A model generated the notes under the pieces. The model was not told where the DNA came from and ran no database searches. It was given only the letters and a program-made list of their open reading frames with translations. The translations under genes were made by a program, and so were the position numbers. Shown here in pieces: positions 18,320-23,142 of a stretch of DNA of 30,265 bases. Origin of the DNA: a virus; IMG/VR virus record IMGVR_UViG_3300025770_000067, positions 1 to 30,265 of that record. One strand, given 5' to 3'. Each line of letters begins with the position of its first letter. Within the stretch, counting starts at the first letter, position 1.

Positions 18320-18592
18320 ATGAGTGAAACAAAAATAGTTTATAAAAAAAACAAAGTAACCATAACAATGGATAGTGATTATTATAGAAATTTGTTAGAT
18401 GGATTTAACAATCTTAAAGATGCTACAGATATGCTAATGGAGTGTAATGATTTATATATAAGTAATGTTGATAAATTAAAAACACTTGAATTTCGTATGT
18501 ACCAGGCTTTAGGTTTTTGTAAGCCTACTGGTGGTTGCTATGGGTGTGATGCAGTTATGTCAAATGATCCAAATGCAGAGGTGAAAAAATGA
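18320..18592 (+). CDS. Hypothetical protein with Cys cluster (90 aa)
   Basis: An AAGGAAAG Shine-Dalgarno and ATG at 18320 open the first plus-strand early gene. The N-terminal half is helical and charged; the C-terminal part has CKPTGGCYGC (C67, C73, C76) that could bind zinc. It ends by overlapping the next gene (ATGA). It is of unknown function and part of a cluster of small proteins, several with Cys motifs. Confidence 0.65.
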   Translation: MSETKIVYKKNKVTITMDSDYYRNLLDGFNNLKDATDMLMECNDLYISNVDKLKTLEFRMYQALGFCKPTGGCYGCDAVMSNDPNAEVKK

Positions 18593-18873
18593 GTACATTT
18601 AATGCAGATTTTGATGGATCAGATTACAAACCTAAACACGACAAGAATAGATTAAAAGGTCAAATCCTAAGAGTTTTTAATGCAGTTAAGTTTGGGGATT
18701 GGTTTACCTTAGATGAATTACATCATATAACTAATGATCCCCACGCAAGTATATCAGCACAACTTAGACACCTAAGAAAAGAAAAGTTTGGTTCTTATAA
18801 TATAGAAAAAAGACCAAGAGGTGAAAGGTCTACTGGTCTATGGGAATATAGATTGTGGGGTTCTTTAAAATGA
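18589..18873 (+). CDS. Small winged-helix DNA-binding protein
   Basis: A 94-residue protein. Residues 22-88 form a winged helix: ILRVFNAVKFGDWFTLDEL (first helix and strand), then ASISAQLRHLRKEKFG (recognition helix) and a wing with RPRGER and WEYRL. It is likely to bind DNA, perhaps as an early regulator. It starts at an ATGA overlap with the previous gene. The same fold is common among early phage proteins. Confidence 0.7.
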   Translation: MSTFNADFDGSDYKPKHDKNRLKGQILRVFNAVKFGDWFTLDELHHITNDPHASISAQLRHLRKEKFGSYNIEKRPRGERSTGLWEYRLWGSLK

Positions 18874-19106
18874 GCAATCACTTAATAAAACAATTAGATA
18901 GAGAAGTAGACTCTCTAAGAAGTAATATAGGTTTCCAGGTTTCTGTTCGTAATAAAATTGTTGATTGGTTAGAGGGCGAGATAGAACACAACGAACCTGT
19001 TATAAATGGTGATGAAGTATTAACTGATGGTACTCACGATATTCATGTTGGGCGTACTGAATGTGCTGAAAGTTTACTAAGTATGATAAAAAAATGGGAG
19101 GATTAA
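18870..19106 (+). CDS. Hypothetical protein (78 aa)
   Basis: The start is set at ATG 18870 (MSNHLIKQLD), overlapping the previous TGA; the frame extends upstream to 18855, but that start lies inside the preceding gene. The product is helical and charged, with a mid segment HDIHVGRTECAESLL. It ends in KKWED, followed at once by the next start. Family unknown. Confidence 0.6.
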   Translation: MSNHLIKQLDREVDSLRSNIGFQVSVRNKIVDWLEGEIEHNEPVINGDEVLTDGTHDIHVGRTECAESLLSMIKKWED

Positions 19107-19280
19107 ATGAATGAGAAAGATTATAGGAAGTCAACAATTCTTGTAGAGGTTACTGAAAATGATTATTGGGATAATTTCTATAATCTAATACAAAAGGGCA
19201 AACCATTTGAATGGTCTTTCCCGACTTTGGAAGATAAATCACATTATATAACTATTAAATTTATATCTGAGGAGGATTAA
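19107..19280 (+). CDS. Hypothetical protein (57 aa)
   Basis: ATG 19107 directly follows the previous TAA, with GGGAGGATTAA as Shine-Dalgarno and stop in one. It encodes 57 residues, MNEKDYRKSTILVEV at the start and a Phe/Trp-rich middle (WDNFYNLIQKGKPFEWSF), ending in SEED. The RBS/start region is nearly identical to that of the next gene (see the repeat finding). The function is unknown. Confidence 0.65.
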   Translation: MNEKDYRKSTILVEVTENDYWDNFYNLIQKGKPFEWSFPTLEDKSHYITIKFISEED

Positions 19281-19583
19281 ATGAATGATAAAGATTTTGT
19301 AACAAGGCTTAGAGAAATTTTTGATATGGATAAAGATTTGAAATCTATGATAACAACAAACGAAAGTTTCATTGACCTATTCAAATCTCATACTGAATTA
19401 CTTAAAGATATATTGGATTTAAAGATATTACCAAGTGAACCAGTATTAAGTTTACATGATCCATTGAAATTTGAAATCTATGACCAGGAGGGGTTATATA
19501 TGTACACTATTGACACCACTCCACATTACAACCTCAATCAAAAAATCAAAAAAGAATTAAAACTTGATGATTATTACTTATAA
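19281..19583 (+). CDS. Hypothetical acidic protein (100 aa)
   Basis: A GGAGG Shine-Dalgarno and ATG immediately after the previous stop. It has an acidic helix (FVTRLREIFDMDKDLKSMI) and an aromatic C-terminus. No family was recognised. It is the last gene before a 173-nt structured leader and a new promoter. Confidence 0.65.
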   Translation: MNDKDFVTRLREIFDMDKDLKSMITTNESFIDLFKSHTELLKDILDLKILPSEPVLSLHDPLKFEIYDQEGLYMYTIDTTPHYNLNQKIKKELKLDDYYL

Positions 19584-19587
19584 TTTC

Positions 19588-19596
19588 TGATATACT
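19588..19596 (+). promoter_or_regulatory. Extended -10 promoter before the structured leader
   Basis: TGATATACT at 19588-19596 fits TGnTATAnT (extended -10), which reduces the need for a -35. Transcription would begin near 19603, just before the structured RNA at 19608. Confidence 0.55.
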
Positions 19597-19607
19597 GAAA
19601 ACAGAAG

Positions 19608-19694
19608 TTAGGGTTCTTCGTAGTGATAAGTGGTTGTAAAATCAGATTCGGTCTACCACTAGACACCTGATGAACTACATAAAAACCCACCTAA
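19608..19694 (+). ncRNA. Pseudoknotted structured RNA leader, candidate riboswitch-like element
   Basis: Nested pairs visible in sequence: TTAGG (19608-19612) with CCTAA (19690-19694) and GTT with AAC; GTAGT (19620-24) with ACTAC (19674-78); AGTGGT (19629-34) with ACCACT (19655-60). Within the inner loop ATCAG (19641-45) can pair with CTGAT (19667-71) outside that stem, giving a pseudoknot, and AGA/TCT can make a small hairpin as an alternative. It lies just downstream of an extended -10 promoter and about 60 nt upstream of the next gene, with no poly-T in between, so it is probably a 5' leader. No known riboswitch class was recognised. Confidence 0.5.
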
Positions 19695-19756
19695 TATACC
19701 TCCGAGTCCTGAGTAAGACTTAATAAAGGCTCACTAATTTAATATAAGGAAAGCAA

Positions 19757-19981
19757 ATGACAACATATAACTGCGTAGTAAGACTTGAAACATTCCATGA
19801 TATTGATGCTGAAAACCTAAAAGATGCATTTAAAAAGGTTAAAAAGTCATGGAAAGAGATGCATGATATTGAATTGAATGATTTCGATATAACGGCATAT
19901 AAAGATATGGGCGAAAGATTAAGTAAAGGAAATGTGCCTTATAGACAATTTGATGAAATTAAAAGAGAGGAGGAAATATGA
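19757..19981 (+). CDS. Hypothetical protein behind the structured leader (74 aa)
   Basis: AAGGAAAGC Shine-Dalgarno, ATG 19757, 74 residues. It begins with a beta-rich TTYNCVVRLETF, then charged helices. It is the only complete gene between the structured leader and the terminator at 20013, so it is the natural target of leader control. Right after it, GAGGAGG and ATG AAG TAT TGA form a 3-codon reading frame overlapping its stop. The function is unknown. Confidence 0.65.
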   Translation: MTTYNCVVRLETFHDIDAENLKDAFKKVKKSWKEMHDIELNDFDITAYKDMGERLSKGNVPYRQFDEIKREEEI

Positions 19982-20012
19982 AGTATTGACAGGAAAGTTA
20001 TTGCAAACAAAT

Positions 20013-20043
20013 AGGGTGGAATTATTTCTGCCCTTTTTTTTTT
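20013..20043 (+). terminator. Strong intrinsic terminator
   Basis: AGGGTGGAA (20013-20021) pairs with TTCTGCCCT (20026-20034), nine pairs including two G-U, with a TTAT loop, followed by a run of ten T. It ends the unit that began at 19588. Confidence 0.9.
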
Positions 20044-20053
20044 GCTTTTTTTG

Positions 20054-20086
20054 TGTTATACTAAAAACTCATTTAATAAATGGAGG
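20054..20086 (+). promoter_or_regulatory. Extended -10 promoter plus 5' hairpin and SD
   Basis: TGTTATACT at 20054-20062 is an extended -10. Eight nucleotides later a hairpin CATTT (20070-74), AAT loop, AAATG (20078-82) directly abuts GAGG (20083-86), the Shine-Dalgarno of the gene at 20095. The same hairpin-plus-SD plan recurs at 21284 and 22549 with other bases in the stem. Confidence 0.65.
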
Positions 20087-20094
20087 TTTAAAAA

Positions 20095-20499
20095 ATGGAA
20101 TATTCAAAGAAAACTAGAGATAAGATACAAAAAATTTTAAAAGAGGAGGAGGAATACCCCTTTAAAACTCTAAGAAATTTAGATTTTAAAAACTTCCCTA
20201 AAGGTGAAACTGTTTTTCCTCACCAATGTCAGCATTGTGGTTGTGGAATGGGGGAGGGTTATTTTTTAAATGAAGATAATTATGCCTGTTCACAACATTG
20301 TATGATTAGTTTGCTTTACAGTCAAAATGCTTATTACTGGACAACATGGGAAGAACACTCACAACAATATATTAAAGATGGACAACCTGTCTATGATTCA
20401 GAGGGTAACTCTTACTATGCAACTGGGGAGTTTAAAAAGGAAAATGTTTATCTTGGTGAATTATCATTTGAGGGAGGGCATGACTATGAATACTATTAA
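20095..20499 (+). CDS. Small zinc-ribbon-like protein (134 aa)
   Basis: ATG 20095 after GGAGG. Residues 45-69 hold C45-x2-C48-x-C50 and C65-x3-C69 (QCQHCGCGMG, YACSQHC), likely zinc sites. The N-terminus is a charged helix and the C-terminus is Tyr/Glu-rich and acidic. No family was identified. Transcribed from its own promoter, it is the first gene of the unit 20054-21269. Small metal-binding early proteins of phages often bind host enzymes, but that is only a possibility here. Confidence 0.65.
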   Translation: MEYSKKTRDKIQKILKEEEEYPFKTLRNLDFKNFPKGETVFPHQCQHCGCGMGEGYFLNEDNYACSQHCMISLLYSQNAYYWTTWEEHSQQYIKDGQPVYDSEGNSYYATGEFKKENVYLGELSFEGGHDYEYY

Positions 20500-20692
20500 A
20501 GCAAACATAGAAAGCGATATTGAATATAGTGAGCGTATTCAGGAACTTTGTCCAAAATGTCAATCTCATTTAGAACACGATAGAAACTTAGATTGGGAAA
20601 ACGAAATATGGATATGTGCTAATTGTAATACTGAATTTTCAGTCCATATCGAGTTTGTCAGAGATTGGGAAGATATAGAGGAGGTAGAGTAA
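20486..20692 (+). CDS. Zinc-ribbon protein (68 aa)
   Basis: The start is taken at ATG 20486 because the SD GGAGG lies 8 nt upstream; the alternative ATG 20480 is only 2 nt from it. Residues C22-x2-C25 (ELCPKCQS) and C44-x2-C47 (WICANCNTE) form a classic zinc ribbon. The C-terminus is acidic. It overlaps the previous gene by 14 nt and the next by 1 nt. Its function is unknown; zinc ribbons often bind nucleic acid or RNA polymerase. Confidence 0.7.
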   Translation: MNTIKANIESDIEYSERIQELCPKCQSHLEHDRNLDWENEIWICANCNTEFSVHIEFVRDWEDIEEVE

Positions 20693-20859
20693 TGTGGACA
20701 GTATGGGTTGGTGGTACAGAAGTTACAGATAATTATGTAGATAGAGATACTGCTGATAGTATTTTGACAGACTATTTACATCAGGGATATGATGATGTTT
20801 ATATTGAGGAAGTGTCCAAAGAAAGAGATCATAATTTAAAGGAGGTGAAAAATGATTGA
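20692..20859 (+). CDS. Hypothetical protein (55 aa)
   Basis: Start at ATG 20692, overlapping the previous TAA as TAATG, with GAGGAGGT upstream. The product starts MWTVWVGGTEVTDNYV and is acidic in the middle. It overlaps the next ORF start by 8 nt. No family was recognised. Confidence 0.55.
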   Translation: MWTVWVGGTEVTDNYVDRDTADSILTDYLHQGYDDVYIEEVSKERDHNLKEVKND

Positions 20860-20959
20860 CCAGGCTATTAACATAGTATTAGTAATTTTCGTTTTATTAT
20901 CGGCTTTAGGTATATCAATATTAATAACTTTGTTTTGTTATTATTACCTATTCAAATAG
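20852..20959 (+). CDS. 35-residue single-TM peptide
   Basis: ATG 20852 with a near-perfect AAGGAGGT Shine-Dalgarno. It encodes MIDQAINIVLVIFVLL and a Tyr-rich tail, one transmembrane helix of about 24 residues. It is very small but has the best SD in the unit, so it is probably expressed. Membrane targeting and function are unknown. Confidence 0.6.
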   Translation: MIDQAINIVLVIFVLLSALGISILITLFCYYYLFK

Positions 20960-20967
20960 GGGATATT

Positions 20968-21114
20968 ATGCTTAGATGTAATAAATGTCATAAGGCTTTA
21001 CAAGTAGCACATAAAAATAATAATTGTTTTGCTTGTAAATATTACAAGGGTTTTATAAGTAATAAAACTGGTTTTAGATATAAAATTATCCAATATTTTA
21101 TAGGTATATTATGA
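20968..21114 (+). CDS. Zinc-ribbon-like basic protein (48 aa)
   Basis: ATG 20968, ending TGA 21114. Residues C4-x2-C7 (LRCNKCHK) and C20-x2-C23 (NCFACK) give a compact four-Cys zinc site; the C-terminal half is basic and aromatic (GFRYKIIQYF). It probably binds nucleic acid. It overlaps the next gene start as ATGA. Confidence 0.6.
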   Translation: MLRCNKCHKALQVAHKNNNCFACKYYKGFISNKTGFRYKIIQYFIGIL

Positions 21115-21269
21115 GTAAATTTTTCAGGGTAGAAAAACAAAAAAATGGTTCTTATTTAGTATCATATTATTCTACTAAAGGTAAACTTATTCAGGGTATA
21201 TATCGTAACTGTTTATCTTATACTGCTTTAAAGAAATTTAAAAAAGATAAAAAACATCTCTTAAATTGA
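21111..21269 (+). CDS. Basic hypothetical protein (52 aa)
   Basis: ATG 21111 (overlapping the previous TGA), 52 codons, stop at 21269. It is lysine-rich (KKFKKDKKHLLN) with a Tyr-containing middle. It was too short for a standard ORF list. No homology is recognised; its end adjoins the next promoter. Confidence 0.6.
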   Translation: MSKFFRVEKQKNGSYLVSYYSTKGKLIQGIYRNCLSYTALKKFKKDKKHLLN

Positions 21270-21271
21270 TT

Positions 21272-21300
21272 TATAATTAAGGTTCTTTAATAAAGAGAGG
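21272..21300 (+). promoter_or_regulatory. -10 box with TTAAGGTTCTTT leader and hairpin
   Basis: TATAAT at 21272-21277 is followed by GGTTCTTT. The leader makes a hairpin TCTTT (21284-88), AAT, AAAGA (21292-96), abutting GAGG (21297-21300), the SD for the gene at 21309. There is no clear -35. It starts 3 nt after the preceding stop. Confidence 0.6.
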
Positions 21301-21308
21301 TATAAAAA

Positions 21309-21515
21309 ATGAAAATTAAAAAACTCCCTGATGTAGAACCTGAAGAAAAAATATACGGCTTTCAGGTATTCTTAAATAATTGGATAATAGAAATATATTT
21401 ATCTTTAAATACAGGATTAAATTTTTACTGGTCGTATGATAAAATCCTTAAAGATTTGGCAATATCTTTTGCTATTTTAAAGATTGGGTTTATTAACTTA
21501 AATAAAGAGGTATAA
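21309..21515 (+). CDS. Hypothetical protein (68 aa)
   Basis: SD GAGAGG and ATG 21309. A basic, Pro-containing start (KIKKLPDVEPEEKIYG) is followed by two hydrophobic aromatic stretches (FQVFLNNWIIEIYLSL, LKDLAISFAILKIGF), perhaps amphipathic or membrane-associated. No family was identified. Confidence 0.6.
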   Translation: MKIKKLPDVEPEEKIYGFQVFLNNWIIEIYLSLNTGLNFYWSYDKILKDLAISFAILKIGFINLNKEV

Positions 21516-21518
21516 CAA

Positions 21519-21713
21519 ATGGATAATAACAAAAGAAAAAAAGAGGGTTTAAACTGGTTCGATAAAAACCTAAAATCAGTTTTTGAAAATGCTTATAACA
21601 AACACCCCAAAATATTTAATACTGAAAAATATATGTATATGTATTCTAAAGGTGATTGGGATTATTTCAAAAATAAAGATACTAAACATTATGAAACTGT
21701 CAGGAGGGTGTAA
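21519..21713 (+). CDS. Basic hypothetical protein (64 aa)
   Basis: SD AAAGAGG and ATG 21519. The product is basic and aromatic with YMYMYSKGDWDYFKN. Its leader repeats the AATAAAGAGGTATAA unit used by its neighbours. Function is unknown. Confidence 0.6.
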   Translation: MDNNKRKKEGLNWFDKNLKSVFENAYNKHPKIFNTEKYMYMYSKGDWDYFKNKDTKHYETVRRV

Positions 21714-21715
21714 TT

Positions 21716-21967
21716 ATGACATTAGATAAAAATAATATTGTTAAAACCTATAATGCTTTATGTGAAAAATATAGAGCCGTAAATAGTATAGATTTAAACG
21801 ATTTATCCAATAATGAATTAATCATATATATTACAGGTCAAACATTAAAAATGCGACCTTTTAAGGGTTCGTATGATAATGCTTTATATTGGGTTAATGA
21901 AGTTGGGAGGGATAAAGCAATTCAGACATTTATGAAAGCAAAAAAAAATATTGATTTGAATTTTTAA
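21716..21967 (+). CDS. Hypothetical protein (83 aa)
   Basis: SD AGGAGG and ATG 21716. An amphipathic N-terminus (TLDKNNIVKTYNALCEKYRAV), a mid hydrophobic NNELIIYITGQTLKM, and a helical end. No family was recognised. It ends 23 nt before the terminator at 21991. Confidence 0.6.
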   Translation: MTLDKNNIVKTYNALCEKYRAVNSIDLNDLSNNELIIYITGQTLKMRPFKGSYDNALYWVNEVGRDKAIQTFMKAKKNIDLNF

Positions 21968-21990
21968 ACACTAACAAAACCCCAAAACAT

Positions 21991-22014
21991 AACCCCCTTT
22001 ATTGGGGGTTTTTT
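21991..22014 (+). terminator. Intrinsic terminator after the 21716 gene
   Basis: AACCCCC (21991-97) pairs with GGGGGTT (22004-10) around a TTTATT loop, followed by a T run. It is one of three near-identical G/C-rich terminators, each preceded by AACCCCAAAAC-like sequence. Confidence 0.9.
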
Positions 22015-22021
22015 AATTATA

Positions 22022-22061
22022 TTGCCACGATCATAATATATAGTTTATAATTAGGGTTCTT
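22022..22061 (+). promoter_or_regulatory. Promoter with -35 and -10
   Basis: TTGCCA (22022-27), an 18-bp spacer and TATAAT (22046-51), followed by TTAGGGTTCTT, give the best -35/-10 pair here. The leader ends in GGAGG. It drives the single gene at 22089. Confidence 0.7.
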
Positions 22062-22088
22062 AATTAATAACCTATGGAGGTTAAAAAA

Positions 22089-22484
22089 ATGCCAGTACAT
22101 CAAAAAATGATTGATAAAGATATAAACATAGCACTTAAAAAACATGGGGGCTTTTTTGCCTTTGGTAATGACCAATTTAAAAAAGCACATAACCCAAAAT
22201 TAAAATATATTTCTTTAGGTTCTGGTTTATATGCACCTAAAAAAACCTATAAAAACCTAATTATTGATATTGAAAAAGCAATACAAGGTGAAATAGAACT
22301 TGATTTAAGGGTTAACAGTATTAAAGACATTATATGGAGGGAATTAGCAAATTATGAATGTCAAATTGTGGGGAGTGTTTCCGATTGTGTTGACGCTTTA
22401 AAGGGGCATGGGATAACTAAAAAGCAAATTATGAACGAATACCCAGCCTATTTTGATTATTGCATAGAAAATAATTATTTTTAA
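22089..22484 (+). CDS. Hypothetical protein, single-gene unit (131 aa)
   Basis: The start is set at ATG 22089 (MPVHQKMIDK); the first ATG at 22074 lies inside the SD and would make the ribosome site overlap itself. The N-terminal part GGFFAFGNDQFKKA resembles a small phage protein family with FFAF-x3-QF. The C-terminal half is helical, ITKKQIMNEYPAYFDY. The gene has its own promoter and terminator, so it can be expressed independently. The function is unknown. Confidence 0.7.
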   Translation: MPVHQKMIDKDINIALKKHGGFFAFGNDQFKKAHNPKLKYISLGSGLYAPKKTYKNLIIDIEKAIQGEIELDLRVNSIKDIIWRELANYECQIVGSVSDCVDALKGHGITKKQIMNEYPAYFDYCIENNYF

Positions 22485-22507
22485 GGGTTCAATAAACCCC
22501 AAAACCT

Positions 22508-22532
22508 AAACCCCCTTAATTGGGGGTTTTTT
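22508..22532 (+). terminator. Intrinsic terminator
   Basis: AAACCCCC (22508-15), loop TTAATT, GGGGG (22522-26), followed by TTTTTT. The T run extends the stem. It ends the 22022 unit. Confidence 0.9.
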
Positions 22533-22533
22533 A

Positions 22534-22564
22534 TGGTATTATTTAGGTTCTTTAAATAAAGAGG
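22534..22564 (+). promoter_or_regulatory. Extended -10 promoter with leader hairpin
   Basis: TGGTATTAT (22534-42) is an extended -10, then TTAGGTTCTTT. Hairpin TCTTT (22549-53), AAAT, AAAGA (22558-62) overlaps GAGG (22561-64), so the SD is partly in the stem. It drives the gene at 22572. Confidence 0.65.
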
Positions 22565-22571
22565 TGTAAAA

Positions 22572-22781
22572 ATGGATAAAGAACAATTAGAAAATTTTAA
22601 GCAAATGAAAAAATTAATCAAAAATTGTCGTTATGTGTTGGGGTGGGTTCGTACTGGTGAGGGTGATGGGTGTTACTTAGAGATTAAAAAATGTAGTATA
22701 TTGCATAATATGAAAGAAACCCCCCATGAATTTGATATTAATCAATTTCAAATGATTAAGTCAGATTTATATATTAACTAA
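22572..22781 (+). CDS. Hypothetical protein, single-gene unit (69 aa)
   Basis: SD GAGGTG and ATG 22572. A basic N-terminus (NFKQMKKLIKNCRY), a central GWVRTGEGDGCYLEI and an acidic end with PHEFDINQFQMIK. Function is unknown. It has its own promoter and terminator. Confidence 0.65.
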   Translation: MDKEQLENFKQMKKLIKNCRYVLGWVRTGEGDGCYLEIKKCSILHNMKETPHEFDINQFQMIKSDLYIN

Positions 22782-22800
22782 TTAATACACCCTGAAACTA

Positions 22801-22826
22801 AGCCCCCTTAAATGGGGGTTTTTTTT
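22801..22826 (+). terminator. Intrinsic terminator
   Basis: CCCCC (22803-07), TTAAAT loop, GGGGG (22814-18), then TTTTTTTT. It ends the last early unit before the long non-coding region. Confidence 0.9.
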
Positions 22827-22899
22827 GTCCTGTTGAAAGTAGAACCCCCCAAAAGAAGAAACACCAAGTTTAGATATACGATCATTTTTTAAATTCGTT

Positions 22900-22958
22900 T
22901 AGTTTCTTCTGTTTGTTCAAGCTCTAAAACCCTAAAAAGTTATAGTTTCTTCTGTTTG
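22900..22958 (+). repeat. 16-bp direct repeat pair
   Basis: TAGTTTCTTCTGTTTG at 22900-22915 and 22943-22958, identical, 43 bp apart. A reverse-complement half copy, GAAGAAAC, lies at about 22855-22862. Confidence 0.85.
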
Positions 22959-23142
22959 AGTATCTTAAATGGTGATTAATGCCTTTAGACCTCCAAATTT
23001 GCCCTAAATCCAATTAAAAACCTAAACCCTAAACCAACACCAACAGATAAAAACATAAAGCCAAATAGATACAAAGAGTTAAACAACAGATAATAGTTAA
23101 ATACCACAAAGGAACTATAGAACCATAGACAAAGAATAAACC

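Follow-up and report, generated by a model that had tools for sequence, protein, structure and literature searches.

Several riboswitches that control translation, such as SAM-II and preQ1-II/III, carry an H-type pseudoknot 5' of the Shine-Dalgarno sequence. Among phage mRNAs, we know of few leaders with a covariation-supported pseudoknot outside the T4 group. In phage T4, the gene 32 operator comprises a leader pseudoknot of ~28 nt with UUAAA/UAAA elements and the ribosome-binding site on its 3' side; the operator acts autogenously on the SSB gene, and its sequence differs between relatives such as T4 and RB69 (PMC535899). Phage HK022 uses another kind of leader RNA, the ~70-nt putRNA, which folds into two stem-loops and mediates antitermination (PMC9378689).

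Here, we analyzed a window of 30,265 bases, the linear IMG/VR record of an uncultured phage, in which a sequence-only reading had proposed a non-coding, pseudoknotted RNA leader with its own promoter in front of a small gene at 19757. By analogy, we regard the T4 gene 32 translational operator as the nearest functional parallel to this leader, and the HK022 putRNA as the nearest gene-independent phage leader RNA. As in the T4/RB69 operator, the predicted pseudoknot lies 5' of the Shine-Dalgarno sequence, and the two are separated by an A/U-rich stretch of lower structure that contains UAAA-type elements. Unlike in T4, however, the leader is ~154 to 400 nt long, its pseudoknot is nested in further stems and it accepts plug-in modules, while the genes that follow are small and unrelated, none of them being recognised as SSB. 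Assignment to a gene 32-type family thus fails, because the gene that follows varies from phage to phage and is no recognised SSB.

A leader with its own predicted promoter heads a transcription unit

When compared with sequenced phages, the terminase and portal of the window gave distant relatives only; the best portal matches (~25% identity) included marine phage HMO-2011 and Roseobacter and Pelagibacter phages. Within IMG/VR, the terminase has hundreds of close relatives. The leader is located in an accessory region (18320-23000), with replication genes on one side and the terminase on the other. On the + strand of this region we observed many small ORFs of no known kind, with strong terminator-like hairpins between them (20013, 21991, 22508 and 22800).

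Direct reading of the sequence recovered the elements originally listed for the leader, namely the extended -10, the three nested stems, the crossing pair and the lack of a terminator before the gene at 19757 (Table 1). On the + strand, no terminator-like site lies between the promoter and this gene, the first one being that at 20013-20034. The promoter has no good -35 element, and TG-N-TATACT is found at the same place in the homologous loci L008, L009 and L007, that is, in every variant. Judged from the position of the -10, transcription would start at 19602-19604. The other leaders of this genome had been put at 20-60 nt, which is roughly right (for example, the leader behind the promoter at 20054 has 32 nt), although other consensus matches are in some cases more distant from a start. 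We rejected a leader peptide (ATG at 19671, 17 codons), whose start codon is lost in L008 and L009 and whose frame meets a one-base insertion in L009.

The 74-aa product encoded downstream belongs to no recognised family and has no SSB match, and its structure prediction was poor (pLDDT 56) and unusable. Taken together, the promoter, leader, small gene and terminator would resemble a moron-type accessory cassette.

A separate observation concerns a three-codon mini-ORF with a strong Shine-Dalgarno sequence, which occurs in six distinct contexts, directly 5' of an intrinsic terminator each time and with differing genes upstream. It consists of ATG AAR, then CAT, TAT, TAC or CAA, then TGA, and encodes MKH, MKY or MKQ, which is reminiscent of the lambda bar minigenes. 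Among the three-codon ORFs with a strong Shine-Dalgarno sequence in all fetched loci, a T-run follows in these six only.

Table 1 Features of the leader and its transcription unit (window positions unless a locus is named)
Feature	Position	Strand	Remarks
Extended -10 promoter, TGATATACT	19588..19596	+	TG 19588-89, TATACT 19591-96; read directly
RNA leader, ~154 nt	19603..19756	+	Start placed from the -10; covariance model R1 matches 19604-19750
GAAG-TTAGGGTT-CTTC	19604..19619	+	Invariant; possible small hairpin, loop complementary to 19684-19694
Outer stem, 5' strand	19608..19615	+	TTAGG 19608-12 and GTT 19613-15; invariant
Second stem, 5' strand, GTAGT	19620..19624	+	Invariant
Pseudoknot stem S1, 5' strand, AGTGGT	19629..19634	+	3 of 6 pairs doubly changed, every cell paired
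Pseudoknot stem S2, 5' strand, ATCAG	19641..19645	+	3 of 5 pairs doubly changed, every cell paired; register unique
Pseudoknot stem S1, 3' strand, ACCACT	19655..19660	+	Partner of 19629-34
Pseudoknot stem S2, 3' strand, CTGAT	19667..19671	+	Crossing partner of 19641-45
Second stem, 3' strand, ACTAC	19674..19678	+	Invariant
Outer stem, 3' strand, AACCCACCTAA	19684..19694	+	AAC 19684-86, CCTAA 19690-94
Near-invariant 3' block	19695..19750	+	Predicted hairpin GAGuCCU 19704-10/AGGCUC 19727-32; ends at Shine-Dalgarno AAGGA 19746-50
74-aa ORF	19757..19981	+	3' of leader, Shine-Dalgarno present; homologues in L007, L008, L009
Intrinsic-terminator-like hairpin	20013..20034	+	3' of 74-aa gene; closes the transcription unit
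Three-codon mini-ORF sites	19979-19990; L003 976; L005 3234; L044 2227; L059 1267; L075 387		

Compensatory changes in relatives support the pseudoknot

Taken on its own, the window has an unremarkable fold, and its pseudoknot exceeds chance weakly. The MFE z-scores (+0.69 and -0.16) were no better than shuffles, and a nearest-neighbour program favours other pairings for this leader. At least one local Watson-Crick crossing was present in 16% of shuffles, and 2% of them reached the observed number.

Homologues were reached in four IMG/VR contigs through the 74-aa ORF and a pattern of the 3' block. These were one that is identical (L002/L014), together with L008, L009 and L007, which gives three distinct variants (window, L008 and L009/L007). 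All variants have in common the blocks GAAGTTAGGGTTCTTC, GTAGTGATA, TG[TA]AAA and GAACTACATAAAAACCC-ACCTA, as well as the 56-nt 3' block that extends to the Shine-Dalgarno sequence. Between invariant anchors, stem S1 reads AGTGGT/ACCACT, GATGAT/ATCATC and GGTGTT/AACACC in the three variants, and stem S2 reads ATCAG/CTGAT, AGCAG/TTGCT and GGCGA/TTGCC. Counted on excised, anchored segments of our own choosing, with the S2 strands set by fixed flanks and ungapped, 100% of the cells of both stems are paired in the three variants, 6 of the 11 pairs are doubly compensated and none is broken; we used excised segments because MAFFT misplaced the L009 pseudoknot. When the partners were slid by 1-3 columns, pairing fell to 29-52%; the covariation score, which is 0.58 in the original register, was then 0.08-0.21. 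With the letters of the variable segments shuffled, the probability of obtaining both stems by chance was 1.5e-5 for L008 and 3.5e-5 for L009.

A covariation check in homologues had been suggested for the leader, and both pseudoknot stems do show compensatory changes. Together with the extended -10 present in every variant, they uphold the original description of a non-coding pseudoknotted leader with its own promoter. Of the outcomes that the sequence-only reading had named as contrary to it, none was encountered in these comparisons. On these comparisons the predicted pseudoknot is well supported, and its support comes from the relatives. The two outer stems, GTAGT/ACTAC and TTAGG(GTT)/(AAC)..CCTAA, are invariant, and covariation therefore neither supports nor refutes them; we consider both plausible. 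An alternative arrangement of the 5' end is possible, in which a small GAAG/CTTC hairpin would expose the loop TTAGGGTT for pairing with AACCCACCTAA; the stretch GAAG-TTAGGGTT-CTTC is invariant in all variants. Another candidate pairing, GATTCGG 19645-51/CCGAGTC 19702-08, was discarded, as it is absent from L008 and L009.

A near-invariant core carries exchangeable modules

Among the variants, ~110 bases of the core are nearly unchanged; these include the 56 nt that lead to the Shine-Dalgarno sequence. The 3' block is 98-100% identical, compared with 66-92% for the neighbouring genes, and the core is therefore constrained and not merely copied recently. The unpaired GATA, TGWAAA, GA and ACATAAAAACCC are invariant or nearly so, while the peripheral helices are replaced. 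L008, L009 and L007 have an added 5' domain of ~90 nt, which starts near the predicted transcription start and is closed by TAGTAG..CTACT and GTAAC..GTTAC. L009 and L007 also contain two more hairpin domains, one after CTTCG and another between two CACCTA direct repeats. Across the variants, the loop between the S1 and S2 3' strands measures 6 nt at its shortest and nearly 40 nt at its longest. Such a combination of invariant core and exchanged periphery would be the pattern of an RNA whose core is recognised.

One could also propose that a compact fold at the 5' end slows the decay of a short accessory transcript and senses nothing. The first helix does lie near the predicted start in the short form (window) and in the long form (L008/L009), and the peripheral helices are replaceable, as this idea would allow. 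Mere protection, however, would not need ~110 near-unchanged bases, unpaired ones included, and we consider a simple stability element improbable.

Two further observations concern the modules. The CACCTA-flanked hairpin (L009 9560-9625 and L007 1105-1170, both on the - strand) looks as if it had been inserted with target duplication or by slippage. The upstream domain of L008/L009 resembled a methyltransferase-C-terminus-like gene in L057 (78% of 37 nt), but this match was not significant (E 0.59).

The leader precedes different genes within one phage lineage

In the window, L008 and L009, the leader precedes the 74-aa ORF. The leader of L007 is 99% identical to that of L009, but its first gene, an 83-aa ORF, is unrelated, and the 74-aa homologue comes second. 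Since the same RNA is found before different first genes, autoregulation by the 74-aa protein is disfavoured. The promoter and the RNA move together and behave as the portable head of a transcription unit, and this portability favours a controlling factor that these infections have in common.

A portable RNA whose core is kept independently of the first gene might also act in trans, as a decoy, sponge or antisense RNA whose transcription in front of the 74-aa gene is incidental. Yet neither a terminator nor a conserved end is present before the gene, and conservation passes the Shine-Dalgarno sequence to stop a few bases short of the ATG, so that we give a trans-acting phage RNA little credence.

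Searching 87 loci and 14 whole records with the covariance model of the core, R1, returned these copies only. No further copies were found among 80 terminase relatives, and blastn of the window and L009 leaders turned up no genuine match in 50,697 phage records. Among the matches listed, pattern scans of viral and genome contigs produced chance matches only beyond the known variants. The RNA is missing at this place in the relatives L044, L069, L059, L067 and L075. As the copies are confined to these variants, the RNA is, in these collections, an accessory element of one phage lineage.

Several candidates for additional copies were rejected. The pattern GAACTACATAAAAACCC matched four extra loci (L010-L013) in a protein-coding-like context with none of the other leader blocks, which we read as chance, and an 18-mer match in Parcubacteria (L106) lacked the rest of the RNA. 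The pattern AGTGATANNNGNTTGWAAA matched at least 119 stretches; among the matches listed, both stems and a convincing flanking stem occurred in the known variants only, and one match (L116) is a tandem-repeat look-alike.

We also noticed other leaders in these genomes. At the same genomic place, the leader of L019 (590-765) is a different one, structured-looking and followed by a DUF2958 gene; the TTCTCC at the leader's 5' end is complementary to GGAGAA, the Shine-Dalgarno sequence of that gene, and the predicted fold pairs the two. In L009 (9915-10100, - strand), a second promoter and leader lie directly 5' of the first, the promoter sequence being duplicated. By eye, an H-type pseudoknot can be drawn in this second leader, in which AATGT/ACATT crosses TGCAG/CTGCA; a stable hairpin, GTGTCAGTT/AACTGGCAC, is present as well.

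The leader differs from described RNA classes

No Rfam 15 family matched the window at the gathering threshold, in agreement with the earlier statement that no known class was recognised. At E<=10, the window and L009 leaders gave chance snoRNA-like matches, far below gathering scores. The sequence-only reading had offered a riboswitch, a protein-binding RNA or a ribozyme-like element; a protein- or ligand-binding cis regulator fits best. No ribozyme family was matched, and sequence does not itself decide among the three.

In outline, the pseudoknot, invariant core and variable peripheral modules recall large ribozymes, and a self-cleaving ribozyme or intron-like RNA could be imagined. The Rfam ribozyme and intron families, however, were unmatched at E<=10 in two variants and, to our knowledge, the stem order and loop lengths of the leader do not fit the HDV-like, pistol, twister or group I layouts. 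We consider this possibility very remote.

With riboswitches the leader shares a covarying conserved fold within an mRNA 5' UTR. Pairing of the Shine-Dalgarno sequence with CCTAATAT, as a candidate mutually exclusive platform, is predicted in the window only, of the three variants. As in SAM-II and preQ1-II/III, an H-type pseudoknot lies upstream of the Shine-Dalgarno sequence. Unlike in these riboswitches, it sits inside outer stems ~75 nt 5' of the Shine-Dalgarno sequence, which S2 excludes; there is no Rfam match, and the downstream genes suggest no metabolite.

Like the HK022 putRNA, the leader is a structured RNA close to a phage promoter for which the downstream gene is irrelevant. The nascent leader might therefore bind RNA polymerase and let it pass the terminators at 20013, 21991, 22508 and 22800 toward the late genes. 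Its position at the transcript start, with several strong terminators downstream, and its independence of the gene that follows would suit this function, and putRNA is able to act just 3' of an early promoter (PMC9378689). The architecture differs, however: putRNA is described as ~70 nt with two stem-loops, no pseudoknot being mentioned (PMC9378689), and two adjacent stem-loops of ~70 nt are not found here. Moreover, putRNA has no link to a Shine-Dalgarno sequence, and put function does not require the conservation that reaches it in this leader. Relatives with a similar terminator layout are without the RNA, and a new promoter-like site (20054) follows the first terminator. A put-like antitermination RNA thus seems unlikely to us.

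A model for translational control of accessory genes

We propose that the leader is a cis-acting, portable and structured 5' element at the head of an accessory unit, which most likely controls translation through a bound protein or ligand, although we see the case for this as evenly balanced. Our model places control at translation because conservation reaches the Shine-Dalgarno sequence and the leader has no terminator. Host RNA polymerase would start at the extended -10, and the core would fold into an H-type pseudoknot (S1 of 6 bp, an A-rich L1 and S2 of 5 bp) capped on GTAGT/ACTAC and held by TTAGG/CCTAA. The invariant 3' block would join this core without a gap and lead into the Shine-Dalgarno sequence. 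We hypothesize that the unpaired bases of the fold, whose invariance suggests a putative binding site, are bound by a small ligand or by a protein of the phage or its host. Binding would then decide ribosome access to the Shine-Dalgarno sequence and, consequently, the translation of whichever accessory gene follows.

A possible switch involves CCTAATAT (19690-97), which is also complementary, with one mismatch, to ATATAAGG at the Shine-Dalgarno sequence and might pair either with the 5' TTAGG or with ATATAAGG. In the window, the CCT of the outer stem is predicted to engage the Shine-Dalgarno G's with a probability of ~0.56; this occlusion is predicted in the window variant only and not clearly in L008 or L009, and we regard the switch as a weak candidate.

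More tentatively, and with doubts that outweigh our confidence, the leader might represent a class of phage regulatory RNA that is both new and modular, with a near-invariant pseudoknotted core, swappable helices and optional domains of 60-90 nt. Such an RNA would move with its promoter as the head of a cassette, before different accessory genes, and, by sensing a phage or host factor, would set the time at which these genes are translated. If a ligand or protein were found, uncultured marine phages would have provided a new class of switch. With its core kept, its arms replaced and its accessory genes interchangeable, the leader may illustrate how phages equip recently gained genes with control RNAs that already exist in finished form.
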